Shown: in pieces, positions 2-64,000 of the stretch
Layout of the letters: each line of letters opens with the position of its first letter
Position numbering within the stretch: the first letter of the stretch is position 1
Assembly: GCF_024979315.1 (NCBI RefSeq)
Contig: NZ_JANLCK010000006.1
Coordinates: 1-64,000 of the forward strand
DNA length: 64,000 nt
Source of the DNA: Herbiconiux oxytropis
GTDB taxonomy: Bacteria > Actinomycetota > Actinomycetes > Actinomycetales > Microbacteriaceae
Direction of reading: 5' to 3'
The notes under the pieces: model-generated
The model's input: only the letters and a program-made list of their open reading frames with translations
What the model was told of the DNA's origin: nothing
Database searches by the model: none
Made by a program: the position numbers and the translations under genes

Positions 2-268
2 TGCGGGCGCCGGGCCGCCCGCTGCGAGCTCGATCACACGGTGGATTGGGCGCACGGGGGTCGGAGTACCGCGTCGAACCTCGCCCACCTCTGCACGGGC
101 CACCATCACCTGAAGCACGAGGGCGGCTGGCAGGTCGCCCGCCCACCCGATACCGGCCCGGCATCCCGCACCCTCGAGTGGCGATCACCACTCGGCGCCA
201 CCTGCCGCACGACGCCCACCGGCCCAGGCGACGACATTCGAGGTGGCGATGATCCGCCGCCATTCTGA
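2..268 (+). CDS. HNH endonuclease, C-terminal fragment (5' end outside window)
   Basis: The reading frame is open from the first bases and ends at the TGA at 266-268. It encodes a zinc-dependent HNH motif: CELDHTVDWAHGG (His-His part), then NLAHLCTGHHHLKHEGGW with a paired Cys and His run. This matches the C-terminal HNH domain of the DUF222/HNH family that is multicopy in Microbacteriaceae and relatives; the N-terminal part lies before the window. Function in the cell is not established for this family (mobile intron-like or phage-defence roles have been proposed). Frame choice rests on the motif; the overlapping frame starting at base 1 is Arg/Pro-rich and motif-free. Confidence 0.85.
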   Translation, partial: CGRRAARCELDHTVDWAHGGRSTASNLAHLCTGHHHLKHEGGWQVARPPDTGPASRTLEWRSPLGATCRTTPTGPGDDIRGGDDPPPF

Positions 269-55241: not shown

Positions 55242-55395
55242 CTGCGCGAGCCTAGGCCGGTCGTGCTCTCGCCCCTTGGGGCTTGACAAGTGCAGGGCCG
55301 ACGCACCAGCAGTGCCGTCCTCGGGGGGAGGGCGTGCGAGAGAGGGGAATGACGCGCCCGGGCTGAGAGGATGGACCAGACGAGAGGGGTGCGGC

Positions 55396-57387
55396 ATGGA
55401 ACGGATCGACGTCGTGGAGCTGGGCATCGGCGAGATGCTCGAGATGCTCGAGGCGGGCACGGTGACGAGCGTCGAGCTGGTCACCGCCTACCTCAATCGC
55501 ATCGCCTATTACGACCGCACGGGGCTGTGCCTGCACGCTATCGCGGTGCTCGACCCGACCTGCCTCGAGCAGGCCGCTGCGTCGGATGCCCGCCGCCGGG
55601 CGGGCGCGGCCGGCCCGCTCGAGGGCGTGCCGTTCACGGTCAAGGACAGCTACAAGGTGAAGGGCCTCACGGTCGCCTCGGGGAGCCCGGCCCTCGCCGA
55701 GCTGGTGGCGAACGACGACGCCGCATCCGTCGCCCAGCTGCGCGCCGCCGGAGCTGTGCTGATCGGCAAGACGAACATGCCGCCGATGGCGGCGGGCGGC
55801 ATGCAGCCCGGCATCTACGACTACGCCCGCAGCCCCTACCACCCGCAGTACCTCACGGCGGCCTACGGCTCCGGTTCGTCGAACGGGTCGGGCACCGCCA
55901 CGGCCGCGAGCTTCAGCGCCTTCGGGATGGCCGAGGAGACGGTGTCGTCTGGCCGAGCGCCGGCCTCCAACAACAGCCTCGTGGCGTACACCCCCTCTCG
56001 CGGCGTGCTCTCGATCCGGGGCAACTGGCCCCTCCGGCCCACCTGCGACGTGGTGGTGCCGCACACCCGCACGGTCGCCGACCTGCTGCGGGTGCTCGAC
56101 GTGCTCGCCGTCGACGACCCCGACCGCTCGGGCGACTTCTGGCGGCAGCAGAGCGCGGTCGCGCTCCCCGCCCCCGAGTCGGTGCTGCCGAAGCCGGTCT
56201 CGCGGCGGCGACCGGATCGGCTCGACGGGCTGCGGATCGGCGTGCCCCGCCTCTACATCGGCGAGGACACAGAGCCCATCGATCCGCCGGTCATCCGGCC
56301 GAGCGTGCGGGCCCTGTGCGACCGGGCGGCCGACGACCTGCGCGCGCTCGGCGCCGAGGTGGTCGTGGTCGACTTCCCGGTGGTGTCGAACTACGAGGAG
56401 GATCGTCCCTCGGCGGAAGGGCTCCCCGCGCGCGGCCTCGTGCCCGCGGACTGGCGGGCGCTCGAGGGCGGCACGGTCACGGCGATGGCGCTCGACGGGT
56501 TCCTCCGCGACAACGCGGATCCCCGGCTCTCGAGCTGGGCCGACGTCGACGGCGACACGGTCTTCCCGGTCGCCGATGCCCCGGTGCCGGTGTGGATCAC
56601 TCGCGCCCGCGGCGGCTTCGACTGGCAGCGCCTGGCCGAGCTCGTGAAGCAGGGGCTGCCCGAGACCTTCGACGACGTGCCGGGCCTCGACCACCTGCTG
56701 CGCGGGCTCGAGCGCGCGCGCAAGCAGGACTTCGAGGACTGGATGGCGGCCTCCGGGCTCGACCTCGTCGTGTTCCCGGCGGCGGGCGACGTGGGGCGGG
56801 TCGACCTGTTCGAGCGGCCGGAGAGCCTCGAGGCGGCCTCGCGGAACGGCGTGGTGTACTCCAACGGCAATCGCGTCATCCGGCACCTCGGCATTCCGAC
56901 CGTGACGGTGCCGATGGGGTTCATGGCCGACATCCAGATGCCCGTGGGCCTCACCTTCGCGGGCGCCGCCTACAGCGACGACGCGCTGCTCGACCACGCG
57001 TCGGCCTACGAGCGGGCCACGAGGCGGCGGCAGCCGGCGTTCCTCACGCCCACGTTGCCCAGTAACCAGATCGAGCCGGGTGACCAGATCGAACCCGGCG
57101 ACCGGATCGAGCCGGGGGATGAGCTGGCCGACGCGACCGCCACCGTCGAGATCGAGGCGCGCGGCCGGTCGTGGGAGGTGGAGGTGCGGGTGCCGTCGGG
57201 CTCAGCACCCGAGGCCCGGGTCTGGGCCGACGGTCACATCCTCCGCCAGGTGGCCGACGAGCCCGGGTTGTTCCGCGGCCGGGTCTCGCTGTCGCGGAAG
57301 CGCCTCACCGACGAGATGATGATCGTCGTGCGGGCCGGTCGCTCGAGCGCGTCGTTCCAGCTGGTCGCTCTGCCACCCCTTGCCTGA
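55396..57387 (+). CDS. Amidase-signature enzyme with extra C-terminal domain
   Basis: 663 residues. The Ser-cisSer-Lys triad is visible: VKDSYKVKG (Lys), GSGSSNGSGTATAASF (cis-Ser) and EETVSSGRAPAS (nucleophile Ser). AGAVLIGKTNMP and the C-terminal IPTVTVPMGF, GLTFAGAAYSDDALL are family hallmarks. It hydrolyses an amide to acid and ammonia; substrate unknown. After the amidase fold (~555) come three QIEPGD-like repeats and a ~90-residue beta-rich domain that the family usually lacks. ATG 55396 with GAGAGGGG upstream. Divergent from the APC permease. Confidence 0.85.
   Translation: MERIDVVELGIGEMLEMLEAGTVTSVELVTAYLNRIAYYDRTGLCLHAIAVLDPTCLEQAAASDARRRAGAAGPLEGVPFTVKDSYKVKGLTVASGSPALAELVANDDAASVAQLRAAGAVLIGKTNMPPMAAGGMQPGIYDYARSPYHPQYLTAAYGSGSSNGSGTATAASFSAFGMAEETVSSGRAPASNNSLVAYTPSRGVLSIRGNWPLRPTCDVVVPHTRTVADLLRVLDVLAVDDPDRSGDFWRQQSAVALPAPESVLPKPVSRRRPDRLDGLRIGVPRLYIGEDTEPIDPPVIRPSVRALCDRAADDLRALGAEVVVVDFPVVSNYEEDRPSAEGLPARGLVPADWRALEGGTVTAMALDGFLRDNADPRLSSWADVDGDTVFPVADAPVPVWITRARGGFDWQRLAELVKQGLPETFDDVPGLDHLLRGLERARKQDFEDWMAASGLDLVVFPAAGDVGRVDLFERPESLEAASRNGVVYSNGNRVIRHLGIPTVTVPMGFMADIQMPVGLTFAGAAYSDDALLDHASAYERATRRRQPAFLTPTLPSNQIEPGDQIEPGDRIEPGDELADATATVEIEARGRSWEVEVRVPSGSAPEARVWADGHILRQVADEPGLFRGRVSLSRKRLTDEMMIVVRAGRSSASFQLVALPPLA
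57067..57120 (+). repeat. Three 18-bp repeats encoding QIEPGD x3 linker
   Basis: Three imperfect 18-bp units (57067-57084, 57085-57102, 57103-57120) encode QIEPGD, QIEPGD and RIEPGD. They join the amidase fold to the extra C-terminal domain. Confidence 0.8.
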
Positions 57388-57440: not shown

Positions 57441-58169
57441 ATGGGCAACAAGACGGTCGCCATCGTCACCGGGGCCTCGGGCGGGATCGGCCGCGCCGTG
57501 GCCGAGCGCTTCGGCTCCCTCGGCCACGACGTGGTCGTGCACTACGGCGGCGGCGCCGAGCGAGCTGCCGAGGTCGTCGAGGCGGTGCGCGCGGCGGGCG
57601 GCCGGGCGATCGCCGTGCGCGCCGACGTGGCCGACGGGGCCGAAGTCGCGGCGCTGTTCGCGCGGGCGCAGGAGGAGTTCGGCGGGGTCGACGTGGTGGT
57701 GCACACCGCCGGCATCATGCCGCTCGCGCCGATCGCCGAGATGGATCTCGCCGACTTCGACCGCGTGCAGCGGGTGAACGTGCGCGGCACCTTCGTGGTC
57801 GACCAGGCCGCGGCCCGCTCGGTGCGCGCCGGGGGCGCCATCGTGAACTTCTCCACCTCGGTCACCCGACTGCAGCAGCCGGGCTACGGCGCCTACGCCG
57901 CGTCGAAGGGGGCGGTCGAGTCGCTCACGCTCATCCTGGCCCGCGAGCTCCGGGGGAGGGATGTCACGGTCAACGCCGTGGCACCCGGCCCCACAGCGAC
58001 TCCGCTGTTCCTCGAGGGCAAGACGCCGCAGGCCATCGAGCACATCGCCTCGCTCGCGCCGCTCGGGAGGCTCGGCGAGCCCGCCGACATCGCCGACGCC
58101 GTGGTGGGCCTCGTCGCCTCGCGCTGGATCAACGGCCAGGTGGTCTACGTCAACGGCGGGATCGCGTGA
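57441..58169 (+). CDS. SDR-family oxidoreductase
   Basis: 242 residues. TGASGGIGRAVAERF cofactor motif, VVVHTAGIMP (NAG variant, HTAG), NFSTSVTRLQQPGYGAY (catalytic Ser), then AASKGAVESL (YxxxK with Tyr before it) and QVVYVNGGIA at the end. NAD(P)-dependent; substrate unknown. ATG 57441 has GAGAGGA 6 nt upstream. The TetR gene overlaps its end by 4 nt, which together with the operator suggests an inducible SDR controlled by its own operon partner. Confidence 0.87.
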   Translation: MGNKTVAIVTGASGGIGRAVAERFGSLGHDVVVHYGGGAERAAEVVEAVRAAGGRAIAVRADVADGAEVAALFARAQEEFGGVDVVVHTAGIMPLAPIAEMDLADFDRVQRVNVRGTFVVDQAAARSVRAGGAIVNFSTSVTRLQQPGYGAYAASKGAVESLTLILARELRGRDVTVNAVAPGPTATPLFLEGKTPQAIEHIASLAPLGRLGEPADIADAVVGLVASRWINGQVVYVNGGIA

Positions 58170-58765
58170 CCGAGGCGGTCGCGCGGCCGGGGAGGGGCAG
58201 GCGGCCGAGCGCCGAGGTGCGCCGCGACGTGCTCGCCGCGGCCACCGAGCTGCTTCTGGCTGACGGTGTCGCGGCGGTGACGTTCGAACGGGTGGCCCAG
58301 GCGGCGCCGGCGAGCAAGGTGACGCTCTACAAGTGGTGGCCCACCCCCGGGGCGCTCGCCGCCGAGGCCTACTTCGCCCACGTCGAGTCCGGTCTGCGCT
58401 TCGACGACTCCGGCGATCTCACCGCCGACCTGCGCGCGCAGCTGCACGCCTTCGTGGCGACCCTCACCGACGAGCGGATAGGCCCGGTCATCGCGGGCTT
58501 CATCGGGGCGGCGCAGGCGGATGCGGCACTCGCGGAGGCCTGGTCGGCCGGCTACTCGCTCGAGCGCCGGCGCCTCGCCGTCGAGCGGTTCGCCCGCGCC
58601 GAGGAGGCGGGTCAGCTGCGCACCGGTCTCGACCTCGAGGTGCTCGTCGACCAGCTCTGGGGCGCCTGCTACCACCGCCTCCTCGTGCGCGACCAGCCGC
58701 TCACGCCGGCCTTCGCCGACGCGATCCTCGACAACCTGCTGCGAGGGGTCGCCACTGCGCCCTAG
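58166..58765 (+). CDS. TetR/AcrR-family regulator
   Basis: 199 residues. HTH: VLAAATELLLADGVAAVTFE, then RVAQAAPASKVTLYKWWPTPGAL, with a WWP in place of the common HYF after the recognition helix (as in the AcrR-C/TetR subgroup). The rest is helical. GTG 58166 overlaps the SDR stop by 4 nt. Probably binds the palindrome at 57406-57424. Confidence 0.87.
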   Translation: MTEAVARPGRGRRPSAEVRRDVLAAATELLLADGVAAVTFERVAQAAPASKVTLYKWWPTPGALAAEAYFAHVESGLRFDDSGDLTADLRAQLHAFVATLTDERIGPVIAGFIGAAQADAALAEAWSAGYSLERRRLAVERFARAEEAGQLRTGLDLEVLVDQLWGACYHRLLVRDQPLTPAFADAILDNLLRGVATAP

Positions 58766-58801: not shown

Positions 58802-59323
58802 TCAGGAGGGATCGACGAAGTGCACGCCCCACTTGGCCGAGGCGGCCAGGATGCGCTCCATGTCGGGTGGCCCGGCCATGCCGGGGGCGTACCAGAGGTC
58901 GGTGACGTCGCCGATGTCCTCGAAGAAGCGGTCGAGCCCGCCGGGAGTCGAGATCACGAACACCTTCGACTGGTCGAGGCCCACGTTCTTGAAGGTGTGC
59001 ACGACCGATCCGGGGATGGAGGCGATCGATCCGGGCCCGCCCGTGACGAGTTGCGGGCCGGAGTCGGTGACGTGCATGAACTGCACCTCGCCCGAGAGCA
59101 CATAGAACAGCTCCGCCTGGGGGTGGTGGTGCGGGGGCGGGCCGCCGTTCGGCGGGGTCAGCTCCTCGAAGGCGCAGAACAGGTCGCCGGTCGAGGAGGA
59201 GGGCACCTTGATGGTGACCAGGTCGCCCACCACGTTGCGGGTGGGGCCCACGGCCTCACCGGGCAGGATGTGCCCGAACGGCATCGCGAGCGGCGTGCCG
59301 AGGGCCAGCTCCGGGTCAGACAT
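58802..59323 (-). CDS. Cupin-domain protein (quercetin-dioxygenase-like)
   Basis: 173 residues. Cupin motif 1 is PPPHHHPQAELFYVLSGE with His residues for metal, and motif 2 is IPGSVVHTFKNVG. Many such cupins are dioxygenases or sugar/acid isomerases; substrate unknown. The last residues contain Trp and Tyr rich WYAPGMAGPPDMERILA. ATG 59323 overlaps the tautomerase stop by 8 nt, so the two are translated together. Confidence 0.82.
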   Translation of the reverse strand: MSDPELALGTPLAMPFGHILPGEAVGPTRNVVGDLVTIKVPSSSTGDLFCAFEELTPPNGGPPPHHHPQAELFYVLSGEVQFMHVTDSGPQLVTGGPGSIASIPGSVVHTFKNVGLDQSKVFVISTPGGLDRFFEDIGDVTDLWYAPGMAGPPDMERILAASAKWGVHFVDPS

Positions 59324-59567
59324 CGGCCGTGACCGGAGCCGCCGCCTCGTTGCCGGCGGCGATGGCGCCGAGCACGAGCTCCGTCGTGATGCGGTCGCCG
59401 CCGCCGCCCCAGTCGCCGCTGTCGACCTCGTTGAGCAGCACGGTGACGAAGGGGCGAACGCCCTCTCCCTTCACGGCGACGACCGCGTTCGTGAAGCCCG
59501 CGATGAGCGCGCCCTTCTCGGCGGCGTCGTACGTTCCCGCAACCACGGTTGCGTTGATGACCGGCAT
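59316..59567 (-). CDS. 4-oxalocrotonate tautomerase-family protein
   Basis: 83 residues. Mature N-terminus MPVINATVVAG gives the catalytic Pro after Met removal; the core KGALIAGFTNAVVAVKGEGV and VTVLLNEVDSGDWG follow the tautomerase fold. Tautomerases of this group isomerise enol/keto acids, often within aromatic or keto-acid pathways. ATG 59567 with AAGGAGAG 5 nt upstream; the in-frame residues before it (from 59657) are unconserved. Divergent from the XRE-OsmC gene. Confidence 0.82.
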   Translation of the reverse strand: MPVINATVVAGTYDAAEKGALIAGFTNAVVAVKGEGVRPFVTVLLNEVDSGDWGGGGDRITTELVLGAIAAGNEAAAPVTADV

Positions 59568-59640
59568 GTTCTCTCCTTCTGCTGAACGGGATCGTCGCTG
59601 CACCGGCGGGCGGAGGAACCCTCGTCGCCAGCCCGGATCC

Positions 59641-59752
59641 AGCTTGTCGACGAACATACCCTGCGAGACGAAAGGGCGACAAGAGGCCCGGAATCCAGGG
59701 TGTTACAGTTGTGTTTCCTCATCGTCGCCAAGGCCGTTCCGCTTTGTCGCCG
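59641..59752. promoter_or_regulatory. Repeated TTGTCG-type sites in the tautomerase/XRE-OsmC intergenic region
   Basis: Three copies of a TTGTCG[A/C]C octamer lie in this 209-nt divergent gap: 59644-59651 forward, 59675-59682 reverse (GGCGACAA), 59744-59751 forward (TTGTCGCC). A fourth (GTCGACAA) is at 60568-60575 before the esterase gene. Candidate operator of the XRE-OsmC regulator. Confidence 0.45.
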
Positions 59753-59776
59753 ACCCTCGATCACGCGGAGGTGCTC

Positions 59777-60466
59777 ATGGCGCACGACGACACTCTCGAG
59801 CAGGAGGTCGCGGTCACCGGCGAGCCCGTGACCGATCGCTTCGCGGCCAAGCTCCGCGCCCTCCGCGCCCAGCGCGAATGGTCGCTCTCCCGCCTCGCCG
59901 CCGCCACCGACCTCTCGAAGGCCTACGTCTCCCGCCTCGAGCTCGGCGAGCGCCAGCCCTCGCTGCCCGCCCTCGTGGCGCTGGCCCGCGCCTACGGCCT
60001 CAGCGTGGGCGACCTGGTCGACGAGGAGCCGGCCTCGTCGAACATCACGCGCACCGGATCGTTCGACTGGAACGCCGACGCCGCCACCCCGCACGGCCGC
60101 CTCGTGGGCGGAAGCGGCGCCCTCGACGCCGACTTCTCCTTCGACGGGCGCATGCTCGCCGAAGGGTCGAGCCCCGAGGAGATGGTGGCGTGCGCCCAAG
60201 CCGCGTGCGCCGCCATGAGCCTCAACACCCTCCTCACGACCGCCGGCTACGAGCCCCGTGCCATCGGCACGCGGGTGTCGGTCACGATGGAGGTGTTCGA
60301 CAGCAGCGCCGCCACTCTCCAGTCGATCGACATCGAGCTGCAGGCGGACGTGCCGGGCATGTCGTCGACGGAGTTCGGGCAGCTCGCCCAGCGGGTCGCA
60401 CGCAACTCCACCATCGCCAAGGCGCTCGCGGTCGACATCCATATCGCCTCCACGCTCGTGGCCTGA
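59777..60466 (+). CDS. XRE-HTH / OsmC fusion regulator
   Basis: 229 residues with two domains. Residues ~20-80 are an XRE helix-turn-helix (FAAKLRALRAQREWSLSRLA, DLSKAYVSRLELGERQPSLP). Residues ~100-229 are an OsmC/Ohr fold: DFSFDGRMLAEGSSPEEMVA, then CAQAACAAMSLNTLL with the peroxidatic-type Cys144, and VPGMSSTEFGQLAQRVARNS. In peroxidase members the resolving Cys follows in a (N)C(P) motif; here it is Ser211 (RNSTIAKAL). The fold could sense organic peroxides or a thiol-reactive compound and steer the HTH. XRE proteins commonly carry cupins at this place; an OsmC domain is unusual. ATG 59777 has GGAGG 5 nt upstream, better than GTG 59711. Confidence 0.85.
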   Translation: MAHDDTLEQEVAVTGEPVTDRFAAKLRALRAQREWSLSRLAAATDLSKAYVSRLELGERQPSLPALVALARAYGLSVGDLVDEEPASSNITRTGSFDWNADAATPHGRLVGGSGALDADFSFDGRMLAEGSSPEEMVACAQAACAAMSLNTLLTTAGYEPRAIGTRVSVTMEVFDSSAATLQSIDIELQADVPGMSSTEFGQLAQRVARNSTIAKALAVDIHIASTLVA

Positions 60467-60633
60467 AGCCCGGCTCGTTCATTACGGGGCCGTGACGACA
60501 GAAACGCAACCGTAACAAACGCTTAACAAGCTCGTCCCATGAGCGGGTGCACCCCGACTGTAGTGTCGTCGACAAGCGAGATCGGGTTTGGCGACGACCA
60601 CCCTCCCGAACCGGATCCGCGTCCCTGTCCGAC

Positions 60634-61677
60634 ATGACGACGCCGAACGGATCCCCCATGGAACGCTCGATCGACCTGGCAGCATCCGCCGCTCCGCACG
60701 AGCGCGCCGGCGTCTCCGCGGTCACGGTGCGAAGCGGGCAGTTCTGGATCCCCGGTGACGTCACCCAGGTCGGGGTCACCGTGCAGAGCGGGCCGATGTA
60801 CGTCTACTGGGAGGCGCCCGAGGTCGTCACCCGGCCGCATCCGGTCATCTTCGTGCACGGCGGCGGATCGCAGGGCACCGACTGGCTCGGCACGGTCGAC
60901 GGCAGGCCCGGGTGGGCCCGCCGGTTCGTGGAGGCCGGTTTCGCGGTCTACGTGGTCGACCGCCCTGGGCACGGCCGCTCGGCCTTCCACCCCGACGTCA
61001 TCGGCGCGATGGGCCCGCAGTTCGGCTACGAGCCGGCCATGGGCCTGTTCATCGACTCCGCCACCGACGAGCCCCACTCGGCCTGGCCGTGGGGATCGGC
61101 GCCTGGAGACCCCGAGATGGACCAGATGCTCGCCGCGGTCGGACCGCTGCCGGCCGACCTCGGCCTGAGCGAGGAGCTCGACAGCGCCCGCCTCGCGAAG
61201 CTCCTCGACCTCACGGGACCGGCAGTTCTCGTGACCCACTCCGCGGGCGGCCCCTCGGGCTGGCTCGCCGCGGCGCTCCGGCCCGGCCTCGTGGCGGCGA
61301 TCGCCGCGATCGAGCCGATGGGCCCGGCCTTCGCCGAGTTCCCCGGTCTCGGCACCCTCACCTGGGGTCTCACGGCCGCGCCCCTCGCCTACGACGCGGG
61401 CTACGGGACCCCCGCCGAGGTCGAGGCCGCGCCGGCCGACGCACGCACCGTCGCCGCTCTCGCGGGCCTGCCGATCGCCGTCTTCACCGGGGGCAGCTCG
61501 CCGTTCTCGCACGTCGCGCCGGCGGTGGTCGAGTTCCTCGGGCACGCCGGGGCCGCCGCCGAGTGGGTGCACCTGCCCGACCTCGGCATCCACGGCAACG
61601 GCCACGGCCTCATGTACGAACTCAATTCGGACGACACCGTGCGCCCCGTCGTCGACTGGATCGCCGCGCTCGACTGA
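60634..61677 (+). CDS. Esterase-713-like alpha/beta hydrolase
   Basis: About 347 residues. Oxyanion loop VIFVHGGGSQGTDW, nucleophile VTHSAGGPSGW (GxSxGG-type), acid region VVDRPGHGRSAF and catalytic His in GIHGNGHGLMYE; the ending VVDWIAALD matches esterase-713-type enzymes of Alcaligenes. Substrate unknown. Start uncertain (ATG 60634 or ATG 60658); a TAGTGT -10 box lies at 60561-60566. Follows the XRE-OsmC gene by 167 nt with a TTGTCG-type site between. Confidence 0.78.
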   Translation: MTTPNGSPMERSIDLAASAAPHERAGVSAVTVRSGQFWIPGDVTQVGVTVQSGPMYVYWEAPEVVTRPHPVIFVHGGGSQGTDWLGTVDGRPGWARRFVEAGFAVYVVDRPGHGRSAFHPDVIGAMGPQFGYEPAMGLFIDSATDEPHSAWPWGSAPGDPEMDQMLAAVGPLPADLGLSEELDSARLAKLLDLTGPAVLVTHSAGGPSGWLAAALRPGLVAAIAAIEPMGPAFAEFPGLGTLTWGLTAAPLAYDAGYGTPAEVEAAPADARTVAALAGLPIAVFTGGSSPFSHVAPAVVEFLGHAGAAAEWVHLPDLGIHGNGHGLMYELNSDDTVRPVVDWIAALD

Positions 61678-61795: not shown

Positions 61796-62995
61796 ATGCC
61801 GGTCAGCACCGCCCCCCACACCGCGGCCCCCCGCACCGCGCTCCATGTCAGCGATGACTTCGAGCCCCTGATGGAGCGCCTCGACGCGATCCTGCCGCTG
61901 ATCGCCGAGAGCGGCGCCCAGAACGACCTCGACGGCCGGCTCACCCCCGAGGTCGAGGAGGCCCTCGCCGCCACGGGCATCTACGGCATGACCGTGCCGG
62001 CCGAGCTCGGCGGCTACGAGTTCTCGCCCACCCAGGTCATCAAGGCGGTCGAGCGGATCGCGGCCGCCGACGCCTCGACCGCGTGGGTCACGATGGCCCT
62101 CCAGATGGAGACCGGGAGCACCGCGGCCTACCTCGACCCCGCCGCCGCCCGGGAGCTCTACGCCCACGGCTTGCCGTTGCACGCCGGACAGGGCACCAAG
62201 CCCGGCACCGCGGTGCCGGTCGAGGGCGGCTACCGCCTCTCGGGCTCGTGGTCGTTCGCCTCGGGAATGCACCAGGCCACCCGCCTCCAGACGGCGGCGC
62301 TCGTGCGCGAGACGGGCGAGTCGCTCATGATCACGGTGCCCGCCGGATCCGCGACCCTCATCGACAACTGGGACGTGATGGGGCTGAAAGCGACCGGCAG
62401 CATCGACTACGACCTCGACGACGTGTTCGTGCCCGCCGAGCACGCCTGGCCCGCCGCCACCATGGAGCCGCGCACGGGTGGTGCCCTCTACCGCATCGGC
62501 ATCGTGAACCTCTCGGGGCTCGGCCACGCGGGCTGGGCGCTCGGTGTGGCGCGCCGCATGCTCGACGAGATGGCCGAGCTCGCCCGCCGCAAGACGGGAT
62601 CGCGCGGCGCGACCGTCGACTCCGCCCACTTCTACGCCGATTACGCGAAGGCCGAGGCGAAGGCGCGCTCGGCCCGCGCCTGGCTCCTGGAGGTGTGGGC
62701 AGACAACGAGGCCACGCTCGCCGCCGGGCTCCCGCTCTCGGCCGAGCAGGAGACGCTCATCCGGCTCGCCCTCAGCAACGCCACCTGGATGGCCCACGAG
62801 GTCACGATGACCGTCTACACGTGGGCCGGCACGGCAGCGCTCCGCTCGGGCGACCTGCAGCGCTACTTCCGTGACATGCACGCCGGAACCCAGCACGTGA
62901 CGAGCGGGCCGGGGGTGGTGCAGGGCTGCGGGCAGATGCTCGCGGGCCTCGCCCCCGGCAAGCGGTGGATGTTCCTCGACCTCGTACCCGCCTGA
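61796..62995 (+). CDS. Acyl-CoA dehydrogenase-fold flavin oxidoreductase (HsaA/DszC-like)
   Basis: 399 residues. FEPLMERLDAILPLIAESGA, EEALAATGIYGMTVPAELGG, IAAADASTAWVTMALQM, WSFASGMHQATRL and WDVMGLKATGSIDYDLDDVF follow the group-D flavin monooxygenase branch (HsaA, DszC, SfnB) more than true acyl-CoA dehydrogenases, as the C-terminal YFRDMHAGTQH replaces the usual RD-GAxxI and catalytic Glu region. It probably hydroxylates or desulfurises a small molecule with a separate flavin reductase. ATG 61796 with GAGAGAGAG upstream. Confidence 0.75.
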   Translation: MPVSTAPHTAAPRTALHVSDDFEPLMERLDAILPLIAESGAQNDLDGRLTPEVEEALAATGIYGMTVPAELGGYEFSPTQVIKAVERIAAADASTAWVTMALQMETGSTAAYLDPAAARELYAHGLPLHAGQGTKPGTAVPVEGGYRLSGSWSFASGMHQATRLQTAALVRETGESLMITVPAGSATLIDNWDVMGLKATGSIDYDLDDVFVPAEHAWPAATMEPRTGGALYRIGIVNLSGLGHAGWALGVARRMLDEMAELARRKTGSRGATVDSAHFYADYAKAEAKARSARAWLLEVWADNEATLAAGLPLSAEQETLIRLALSNATWMAHEVTMTVYTWAGTAALRSGDLQRYFRDMHAGTQHVTSGPGVVQGCGQMLAGLAPGKRWMFLDLVPA

Positions 62996-63084: not shown

Positions 63085-63096
63085 AAAGGACGCACC

Positions 63097-64000
63097 ATGA
63101 GAAACCGCAGACCGGCCGCCGTCGCCGCCGTCCTGGCCACCGCCACCGCCGTGGCCCTCGCCCTGACCGGCTGTGCCACGTCGTCGACCGCCACGCCCGA
63201 CTCCACGAGCGAAGGCTCGGCCGAGGGCGAGACCAAGACCGTCACGGTCGGCATCGACATCCCGTTCCACCCGCTCTACGCCTACCTCACCGCCAAGAGC
63301 GACGAGATCTTCGCCGATTCCGGCTACGACATCGACTTCGAGGTGCTCGACGCCACGACCCTCGTGCCGAGCTTCGGGCGCGGCGACATCGACATCGTCA
63401 CGACCGTGCCGTCGTTCCAGCCCCGGATCAAGGACCAGTACGGCATCGACACCCAGTTCTTCTACCCGATGGCCCGCTGGACCCCGGGCTCCGAGCTCTA
63501 CGTCGCGGGCGACTCCGACATCCAGTCGATCGAGGACCTCGCGGGCAAGAAGGTCGCCATCCCGCCGCTCGCCACCCGCTTCGGCGCCGAGGAGGCCGCG
63601 GTGCTCGCCACCACCGGCGAGACCATCCAGGACTACTTCGAACTCACCGAGACCGACGCCGCGGCCCAGGAGCTCACCCTCGGCCGGGCCGACGCCGCGT
63701 TCATCGAGGCCCCCGCCACGGCGCCGCTGATCGAGGCGGGTTTCCGCCCGGTCTACAACGTGCAGGAGGCCTTCGAGGAGGAGTTCGGCGACCCCGCGGT
63801 GCTGAGCGGCGGGTTCATCGCGAGCAACGAGTTCGCCGAGGCCAACCCCGAGGTGATCGACCTCATCGTGCAGGCCACCCAGGATGTCTGGACCCAGTTC
63901 CAGGAGGATCCCGAATCGGTGCTCACCGTGGCGAGCGACGAGACCGGCATCCCGGTCGAGCAGCTCGAGCTCGTCTCCCAGATCCTCAACCTCGCCGAGA
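63097..64000 (+). CDS. SsuA/TauA-like ABC substrate-binding lipoprotein, partial (3' end outside window)
   Basis: At least 301 residues, open at the right edge. Lipobox LALTGCATS (Cys26). Mature part: VTVGIDIPFHPLYAYLTAKS, then FADSGYDIDFEVLDATTLVPSFGRGDIDIVTTVPS, SIEDLAGKKVAIPP and LGRADAAFIEAPATAPLI, the pattern of NMT1/SsuA-type binding proteins for sulfonates, nitrate or pyrimidine precursors. The preceding FMO-like enzyme may act on the imported compound. ATG 63097 with AAAGGA 6 nt upstream. Confidence 0.85.
   Translation, partial: MRNRRPAAVAAVLATATAVALALTGCATSSTATPDSTSEGSAEGETKTVTVGIDIPFHPLYAYLTAKSDEIFADSGYDIDFEVLDATTLVPSFGRGDIDIVTTVPSFQPRIKDQYGIDTQFFYPMARWTPGSELYVAGDSDIQSIEDLAGKKVAIPPLATRFGAEEAAVLATTGETIQDYFELTETDAAAQELTLGRADAAFIEAPATAPLIEAGFRPVYNVQEAFEEEFGDPAVLSGGFIASNEFAEANPEVIDLIVQATQDVWTQFQEDPESVLTVASDETGIPVEQLELVSQILNLAE

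Follow-up and report, generated by a model that had tools for sequence, protein, structure and literature searches.

A rare XRE-OsmC fusion in Herbiconiux lacking the OsmC resolving cysteine is a candidate autoregulated one-component regulator of flanking genes

The window analyzed here, the first 64,000 nucleotides of contig NZ_JANLCK010000006.1 of Herbiconiux oxytropis, encodes a 229-residue protein (59777..60466 on the plus strand including the stop codon, with coding sequence to 60463) that joins two domains. An XRE/Cro-CI helix-turn-helix (HTH; residues 21-82, plus strand 59837..60022) is followed by an OsmC domain (residues ~90-229, plus strand 60044..60463), and the assignment of the gene as an XRE-OsmC fusion was based on its open reading frame, Pfam and NCBIfam models, PDB sequences and orthologues. 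A GGAGG stretch precedes the ATG at 59777, and a longer form beginning at a GTG is disfavored because of a one-base indel just upstream relative to one relative. Divergent from the fusion gene, on the minus strand, are genes for a tautomerase (59316..59567; Pfam Tautomerase, 1.8e-7) and a cupin (58802..59323; Pfam Cupin_2, 4.4e-12), which overlap by 8 bases and putatively share a transcript, and a TetR gene identified by Pfam lies at 58166-58765. On the plus strand after the fusion gene are an alpha/beta hydrolase gene (60658..61677; Pfam Abhydrolase_1, 9.1e-9), whose start was picked by conservation with relatives, a gene for the oxygenase component of an HsaA-like flavin-dependent monooxygenase (61796..62995; NCBIfam HsaA, 1.8e-35, far under its cut-off) and a gene for an ABC substrate-binding lipoprotein (63094..64000, continuing to 64134 past the window; Pfam NMT1, 6.2e-9, and Phosphonate-bd, 5.4e-10). 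Elsewhere in the window, at 55390-57384, is an amidase that scored 686.7 bits against a cut-off of 575 for NCBIfam PRK06565 and has ~110 residues past the match at its C-terminal end.

The original prediction had read this open frame as an XRE-type HTH at residues ~20-80 joined to an OsmC fold, and both domains were recovered by profile searches. Pfam matched HTH_31 to residues 21-82 (E 2.5e-14) and HTH_3 to residues 26-80 (E 1.4e-13), both above their gathering scores, such that the protein carries the Cro/CI-type HTH by which XRE-family transcriptional regulators are recognized. The profile search that had been named as the test of the C-terminal fold identified OsmC on residues 129-222 (E 7.2e-11, 42.8 bits against a cut-off of 27.5), and the OsmC subfamily model TIGR03562 of NCBIfam matched residues 92-221 (E 1.5e-22) at 80.2 bits, below its cut-off of 85.8. 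In comparisons with PDB sequences the OsmC part matched Thermus thermophilus OsmC (1ukk, 9.8e-15) and also Escherichia coli OsmC (1qwi and 1nye), and no cupin was found in the fusion protein by Pfam at E values up to 1. An AlphaFold model, for which the input alignment had six rows, three of these OsmC only, was weak (mean pLDDT 60.9, with ten-residue blocks of 62-87 from residue 131 on and mostly 42-56 in the HTH). The best Foldseek match of this weak model was E. coli OsmC 1qwi (E 5.4e-8, TM-score by target 0.62, rmsd 13.8).

Orthologous fusions were present in two other genomes, at 99% and 90% identity, which rules out an assembly artefact. Comparison with the 90% relative gave dN/dS values of 0.014 for the HTH and 0.114 for the OsmC domain, showing that both domains are under purifying selection.

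The distribution of the fusion was narrow. It was found in three of 16 genomes of the genus, and a search of a family sample with the protein as query returned 1 of 398 genomes, the window's own. In the phylum sample the same query at 1e-15 had any match in 11 of 396 genomes; both domains were matched in the window's own genome only, with OsmC alone matched in seven and the HTH alone in three. A composite HTH-OsmC profile, built with artificial chimera rows, matched 116 of 197 genomes in the class sample at 1e-22, and at 1e-45 it matched 1 of 396 in the order sample (the window's own) and 33 of 396 in the phylum sample. Among the matches listed for the class, order and phylum, none but the window's own spanned both domains, and the OsmC matches began no earlier than model position 53, in most cases near position 69. 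These large samples overlap, are drawn from the window's phylum, and had just 7 to 15 candidates scored per genome.

Since a fusion with a different linker could appear in such searches as an OsmC match only, the open frames around the OsmC matches of the fetched loci were checked for an HTH. Seventeen frames that are copies of the three fusion genes had one at ~120 bits, and three frames were edge fragments of the fusion; the other 38 OsmC frames, some of them duplicates, had none (best E 0.02). A scan of contigs by N-terminal peptide patterns, the reach of which is limited to close fusions, returned 30 stretches and two relatives. Searches of mobile elements gave 38 plasmid records by tblastn, none covering 80% of the fusion query, no match to the fusion in phages, and no fusion and three stand-alone OsmC proteins in viral contigs. 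The first-listed plasmid match, which starts from residue 62, was rejected, being a separate annotated peroxiredoxin gene with no HTH in its open frame. The original prediction had also known of no described one-component regulator with this architecture. This held among the literature matches listed (titles and the starts of abstracts, with most subscription journals outside the scope), where no HTH-OsmC protein was described, and the rarity of the domain combination held within the sampled phylum and for fusions visible to such profiles. Together, these data indicated that the fusion is real, conserved and apparently rare.

The PDB sequence comparison with T. thermophilus and E. coli OsmC placed Cys144 (60206-60208) on the peroxidatic and Ser211 (60407-60409) on the resolving Cys; together with an alignment of 30 distinct stand-alone OsmC proteins from the fetched loci, it agreed with the predicted positions of these residues and of Cys139 (60191-60193; all codons on the plus strand). 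Cys144, Arg125 (60149-60151), Glu134, Glu135, Met147 and Gly130 are unchanged in the fusion and all 30 stand-alone proteins. By contrast, column 211 is Cys in all 30 stand-alone proteins and Ser in the fusion, and the fusion further differs at columns 214 (Ser in 30 of 30; Ala in the fusion), 212 (Pro in 28 of 30; Thr), 139 (Ala in 30 of 30; Cys), 145 (Phe in 25 and Tyr in five; Ala) and 141 (His in 28 of 30; Gln). These counts indicated that the C-P-x-S resolving motif has been lost and that the reactive Cys now sits in a rebuilt environment, whereas the residues supporting its reactivity have been kept. The predicted absence of a second catalytic Cys was thus confirmed at the aligned position, though the fusion has gained a new Cys at 139. 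The Cys-Arg-Glu set of the OsmC thiol is intact in all three fusion sequences; the invariance of Cys144 carries little weight by itself as there are just three sequences, all at least 90% identical. With Ser in place of its resolving Cys, the OsmC domain is probably unable to finish the peroxidase cycle. The host genome has three other OsmC/Ohr-family proteins.

The equivalent change has been made in the laboratory. In Corynebacterium glutamicum Ohr, substitution of the resolving Cys by Ser (C124S) abolished activity with cumene hydroperoxide, while some H2O2 activity was left and sulfenic acid was detectable (PMC4486171). In simulations of Xylella Ohr, the mobility of the loop that carries the catalytic Arg varies with the condition of the peroxidatic Cys, the loop moving when this Cys is oxidized or protonated; in OsmC the Arg is described as sitting in the Gly-rich loop (PMC5962072).

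The two intergenic regions that flank the fusion gene contain three copies of a 32-bp palindrome with the pattern TCGTCGMCAR-N12-YTGKCGMCGA, which were spotted by eye after both regions had been aligned for the three genomes, so that the statistics given below are after the fact. O1 (59622..59653) lies before the divergent tautomerase gene, a putative target, and in both relatives departs from the pattern by one mismatch. O2 (59722..59753) has its end 23 bp upstream of the fusion gene's start codon and is exact on the plus strand in the three genomes. O3 (60566..60597), before the alpha/beta hydrolase gene, likewise a putative target, is exact to the pattern in the three genomes. GATC is at the center of O1, O3 and the O2 of one relative. 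By eye, a -10-like TATGTT on the minus strand abuts O1 and a -10-like TAGTGT abuts O3; a strict sigma-70 scan returned no promoters. Two other conserved stretches were seen outside the palindromes. One, just upstream of O2 at 59698-59721 (GGGTGTTACAGTTGTGTTTCCTCA), is identical in the three genomes and is perhaps the regulator's own promoter, and the other, a block between the fusion stop codon and O3 at ~60490-60530 (CCGTGACGACAGAAACGCAACnGTAACAAACGCTTAACAAG), may belong to the hydrolase promoter or be a site for a second factor.

Several comparisons set the palindromes apart from their surroundings. Across 85 kb of the contig there are four occurrences of the 10-mer TCGTCGMCAA, all within these two intergenic regions. 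When scored for inverted repeats repeated at equal spacing, the regions had a score of 3, whereas 1000 dinucleotide shuffles never exceeded 1 and 1000 pairs of stretches drawn at random from the window never exceeded 2 (11 of 1000). Relative to the 90% relative, the palindrome arms were identical at 59 of 60 positions, compared to 29 of 36 in the spacers and 197 of 280 in the remaining intergenic bases (arms against the rest, Fisher p 2.5e-7). Other measures were less specific: by a looser motif statistic the region could not be told apart from random stretches of the window (score 5 in 9 of 200), the 12-mer half-site by itself was frequent there, with 37 occurrences where 11.7 were expected, and a 13-mer with 74 genome matches within one mismatch, compared to 39 for a reversed control, was not discriminating.

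The co-distribution of sites and fusion is independent of the after-the-fact discovery of the motif. In a scan of the 16 genus genomes that allowed one mismatch, every fusion genome had three sites next to the gene, and the 13 genomes without the fusion (one of which is just 88% complete) had none at this threshold; ten of the 13 had two-mismatch matches only and three had none, and a reversed-pattern control had 0 to 3 matches per genome at up to two mismatches. An extra one-mismatch palindrome is located within an SDR gene at another place in the window's genome and is common to two fusion genomes; it was taken as chance. On this comparative evidence, O1-O3 are strong candidate operators, putatively for the protein encoded by the fusion gene, and the genes beside them a strong candidate local regulon.

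The placement of these sites bears on the further proposal that the neighboring genes form a regulon. This was supported for the tautomerase-cupin pair, the fusion gene itself and the hydrolase, each of which is preceded by a conserved palindrome, and the flavin enzyme and the ABC lipoprotein would come under such control at most indirectly, from their position downstream of the hydrolase. After the hydrolase the same-strand order is the HsaA-like monooxygenase, the ABC binding protein, a permease and an ATPase (overlapping genes), a cupin and a SnoaL-like protein, followed on the same strand by a second HsaA-like enzyme, a carboxylesterase, a PaaK-like CoA ligase, an FAH-family hydrolase and a glyoxalase-fold protein. 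The HsaA-like and PaaK-like proteins are best considered relatives of their namesakes rather than named equivalents, as their scores were far under the model cut-offs. The same-strand transport and catabolic run spans 63094 to 72376 in contig coordinates, of which the part past 64000 is outside the window. Based on these annotations, the cluster reads as one that imports and degrades an aromatic or cyclic compound. No peroxide-detoxifying gene was recognized in it, so that a peroxide signal is not obvious.

Synteny of the hydrolase, first monooxygenase and binding protein is kept in both relatives, and among the 16 genus genomes a monooxygenase orthologue (at least 87% identity) is confined to the three with the fusion. 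Paralogues at 44-48% identity are present in five other genus genomes and as a second copy in one fusion genome, and no XRE-OsmC match was found in the 9-16 kb stretches around them.

The three palindromes, their conservation and their co-distribution with the fusion are the new observations here, and they support a local autoregulated one-component regulator. From the comparative data it is very probable that the fusion protein is a regulator acting on O1-O3, and we consider it likely that it is a local, autoregulated transcription factor at these sites for which OsmC is the sensor, a function that is plausible for this domain. OsmC proteins are reported to be homodimers (PMC8945050), and we infer that a dimer held by OsmC would set two XRE HTH domains on half-sites 22 bp apart (~two helical turns). 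Protein bound at O1-O3, directly next to the putative promoters of the tautomerase-cupin pair, the fusion gene and the hydrolase, would block them, the hydrolase being the putative start of the run through the flavin monooxygenase, ABC transporter, cupin, SnoaL, second flavin monooxygenase, esterase, CoA ligase and FAH genes. Repression is suggested by the position of the sites, and it would be lifted once a signal reached the old active-site pocket.

The signal that we favor is thiol chemistry at Cys144, either oxidation by a hydroperoxide or attack on a pathway electrophile such as an enone or a quinone formed by the monooxygenases. Modified Cys144 would loosen the Arg125 loop, and the change would be passed through the short linker to the HTH; the movement of the Arg loop with Cys state in the Xylella Ohr simulations (PMC5962072) suggests that a ready switch was on offer. 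Given a regulator on these sites, thiol chemistry at Cys144 would have about an even chance of being its mode of sensing, plain ligand binding a smaller but appreciable one, and an absence of sensing would be rather unlikely. More tentatively, and with somewhat less than an even chance of being correct, we propose that the OsmC domain is frozen half-way in its catalytic cycle and has been taken over by an XRE DNA-binding domain as a one-Cys switch that responds to peroxides or to electrophiles of the pathway, which would be a new sensor class. The frozen step is suggested by the Ser at the resolving position, which matches the Ohr variant made in the laboratory for which sulfenic acid was detected (PMC4486171).

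The most serious alternative retains the same regulator and operators but has the OsmC pocket bind a hydrophobic pathway compound, such as an aromatic acid, ester or CoA thioester, with Cys144 a leftover that performs no thiol chemistry. It is a possible reading, in keeping with the catabolic appearance of the cluster (two HsaA-like monooxygenases, a PaaK-like ligase, an FAH hydrolase and an ABC importer) and with changes at near-invariant neighbors of Cys144 (His141 to Gln and Phe/Tyr145 to Ala) that fit a reshaped pocket, and BzdR, the nearest analogue, is reported to sense benzoyl-CoA with a dead enzyme domain (PMC3602430). However, the Cys-Arg-Glu set is intact in the three sequences and there is a new Cys139 where all 30 stand-alone proteins have Ala. 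On balance, thiol chemistry is slightly ahead of an unreactive pathway compound as the signal.

It is unlikely that the OsmC domain acts as a dimer holder that does no sensing, with the protein repressing either constitutively or according to its own abundance, though OsmC proteins are reported to form homodimers (PMC8945050) and half-sites spaced 22 bp apart would suit a wide dimer. The retained Cys-Arg-Glu set speaks against such a role, and the OsmC dN/dS of 0.114 indicates constraint that does not separate structure from sensing. In addition, catabolic clusters are usually induced, which argues against a repressor that responds to no signal.

More improbable still is that the palindromes belong to another regulator, either the TetR protein or a factor encoded elsewhere, and that the fusion gene is one of its targets. 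A 32-bp palindrome with 10-bp arms would suit other dimeric regulators and the TetR gene is nearby, but genus sites with at most one mismatch lie beside the fusion gene only, save the one in the SDR gene. TetR as the owner is thought unlikely, as the 90% relative keeps all three sites and has no TetR match in 15 kb around its locus. Least probable is a trigger enzyme with two functions, binding DNA and still working as a one-Cys thiol peroxidase: the peroxidatic Cys, Arg and Glu are retained and Ohr C124S is described as having partial H2O2 activity, but C-P-x-S is gone, loss of the Cys in that Ohr relative abolished cumene-hydroperoxide activity (PMC4486171), and the genome has its three other OsmC/Ohr-family proteins.

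If an autoregulated factor with a sensor derived from OsmC is the correct reading, it bears on how enzymes become transcription factors, an idea that the authors of the BzdR study describe as widely held with few direct tests (PMC3602430). The question is directly testable here because the fusion is rare in the samples, the parent enzyme family is well characterized, it is known which residue was lost, and the candidate operators are short, precisely defined sequences. A frozen OsmC sensor, if true, would be a further natural dead-enzyme regulator beside BzdR, perhaps young enough for its confinement to part of one genus, and the protein could be the basis of a compact biosensor, made of one protein, that reports hydroperoxides, electrophiles or aromatic compounds.

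Relative to characterized proteins, the fusion has the fold and the peroxidatic Cys, Arg and Glu positions in common with the OsmC subfamily (E. coli 1nye, T. thermophilus 1ukk), but differs in its attached HTH, its resolving Cys changed to Ser, its altered pocket residues and its score under the TIGR03562 cut-off. YhfA proteins are described as keeping both Cys with Arg and Glu absent (PMC8945050), and based on that description the fusion OsmC domain is their mirror image, having kept Arg/Glu and the peroxidatic Cys and lost the resolving Cys. Among the fetched loci the closest relatives of the HTH were three XRE-cupin regulators (52-57% identity over the HTH), the cupin being confirmed by Pfam in two of the three. 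These have the same domain order and a similar length, but their C-terminal sensor is a cupin where the fusion has OsmC, and the closeness of the HTHs suggests that the fusion may have arisen by a sensor swap from the XRE-cupin type.

MsrR of Corynebacterium glutamicum, an XRE thiol sensor reported to act through a single Cys62 that forms an intermolecular disulfide (PMC7532634), resembles the fusion in being XRE-family and actinobacterial and in the thiol-based sensing proposed here, and shows that XRE regulators can sense through thiols; its Cys62 disulfide mechanism is different, and in the text of that paper OsmC appears just in the reference list (PMC7532634). Closest in kind is BzdR of Azoarcus sp. 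CIB, in which an XRE HTH is joined to an inactive shikimate-kinase-like domain that senses benzoyl-CoA, and whose authors consider the loss of enzyme activity essential for becoming a regulator (PMC3602430). The NCBIfam BzdR/BoxR model PRK08154 matched residues 6-88 of the fusion only (35 bits against a cut-off of 204), in line with the fusion having the XRE HTH of that family and OsmC in place of its shikimate-kinase-like C-terminal domain. As described (PMC3602430), BzdR differs from the fusion, which is known from sequence, in its shikimate kinase fold, its linker of some 40 residues and its experimental characterization with benzoyl-CoA as inducer, and it shares with the fusion the XRE HTH and an enzyme-derived domain, dead in BzdR and probably so in the fusion; its several operator regions in the promoter under control and its link to aromatic catabolism resemble the candidate operators and the putative aromatic-type cluster seen here.
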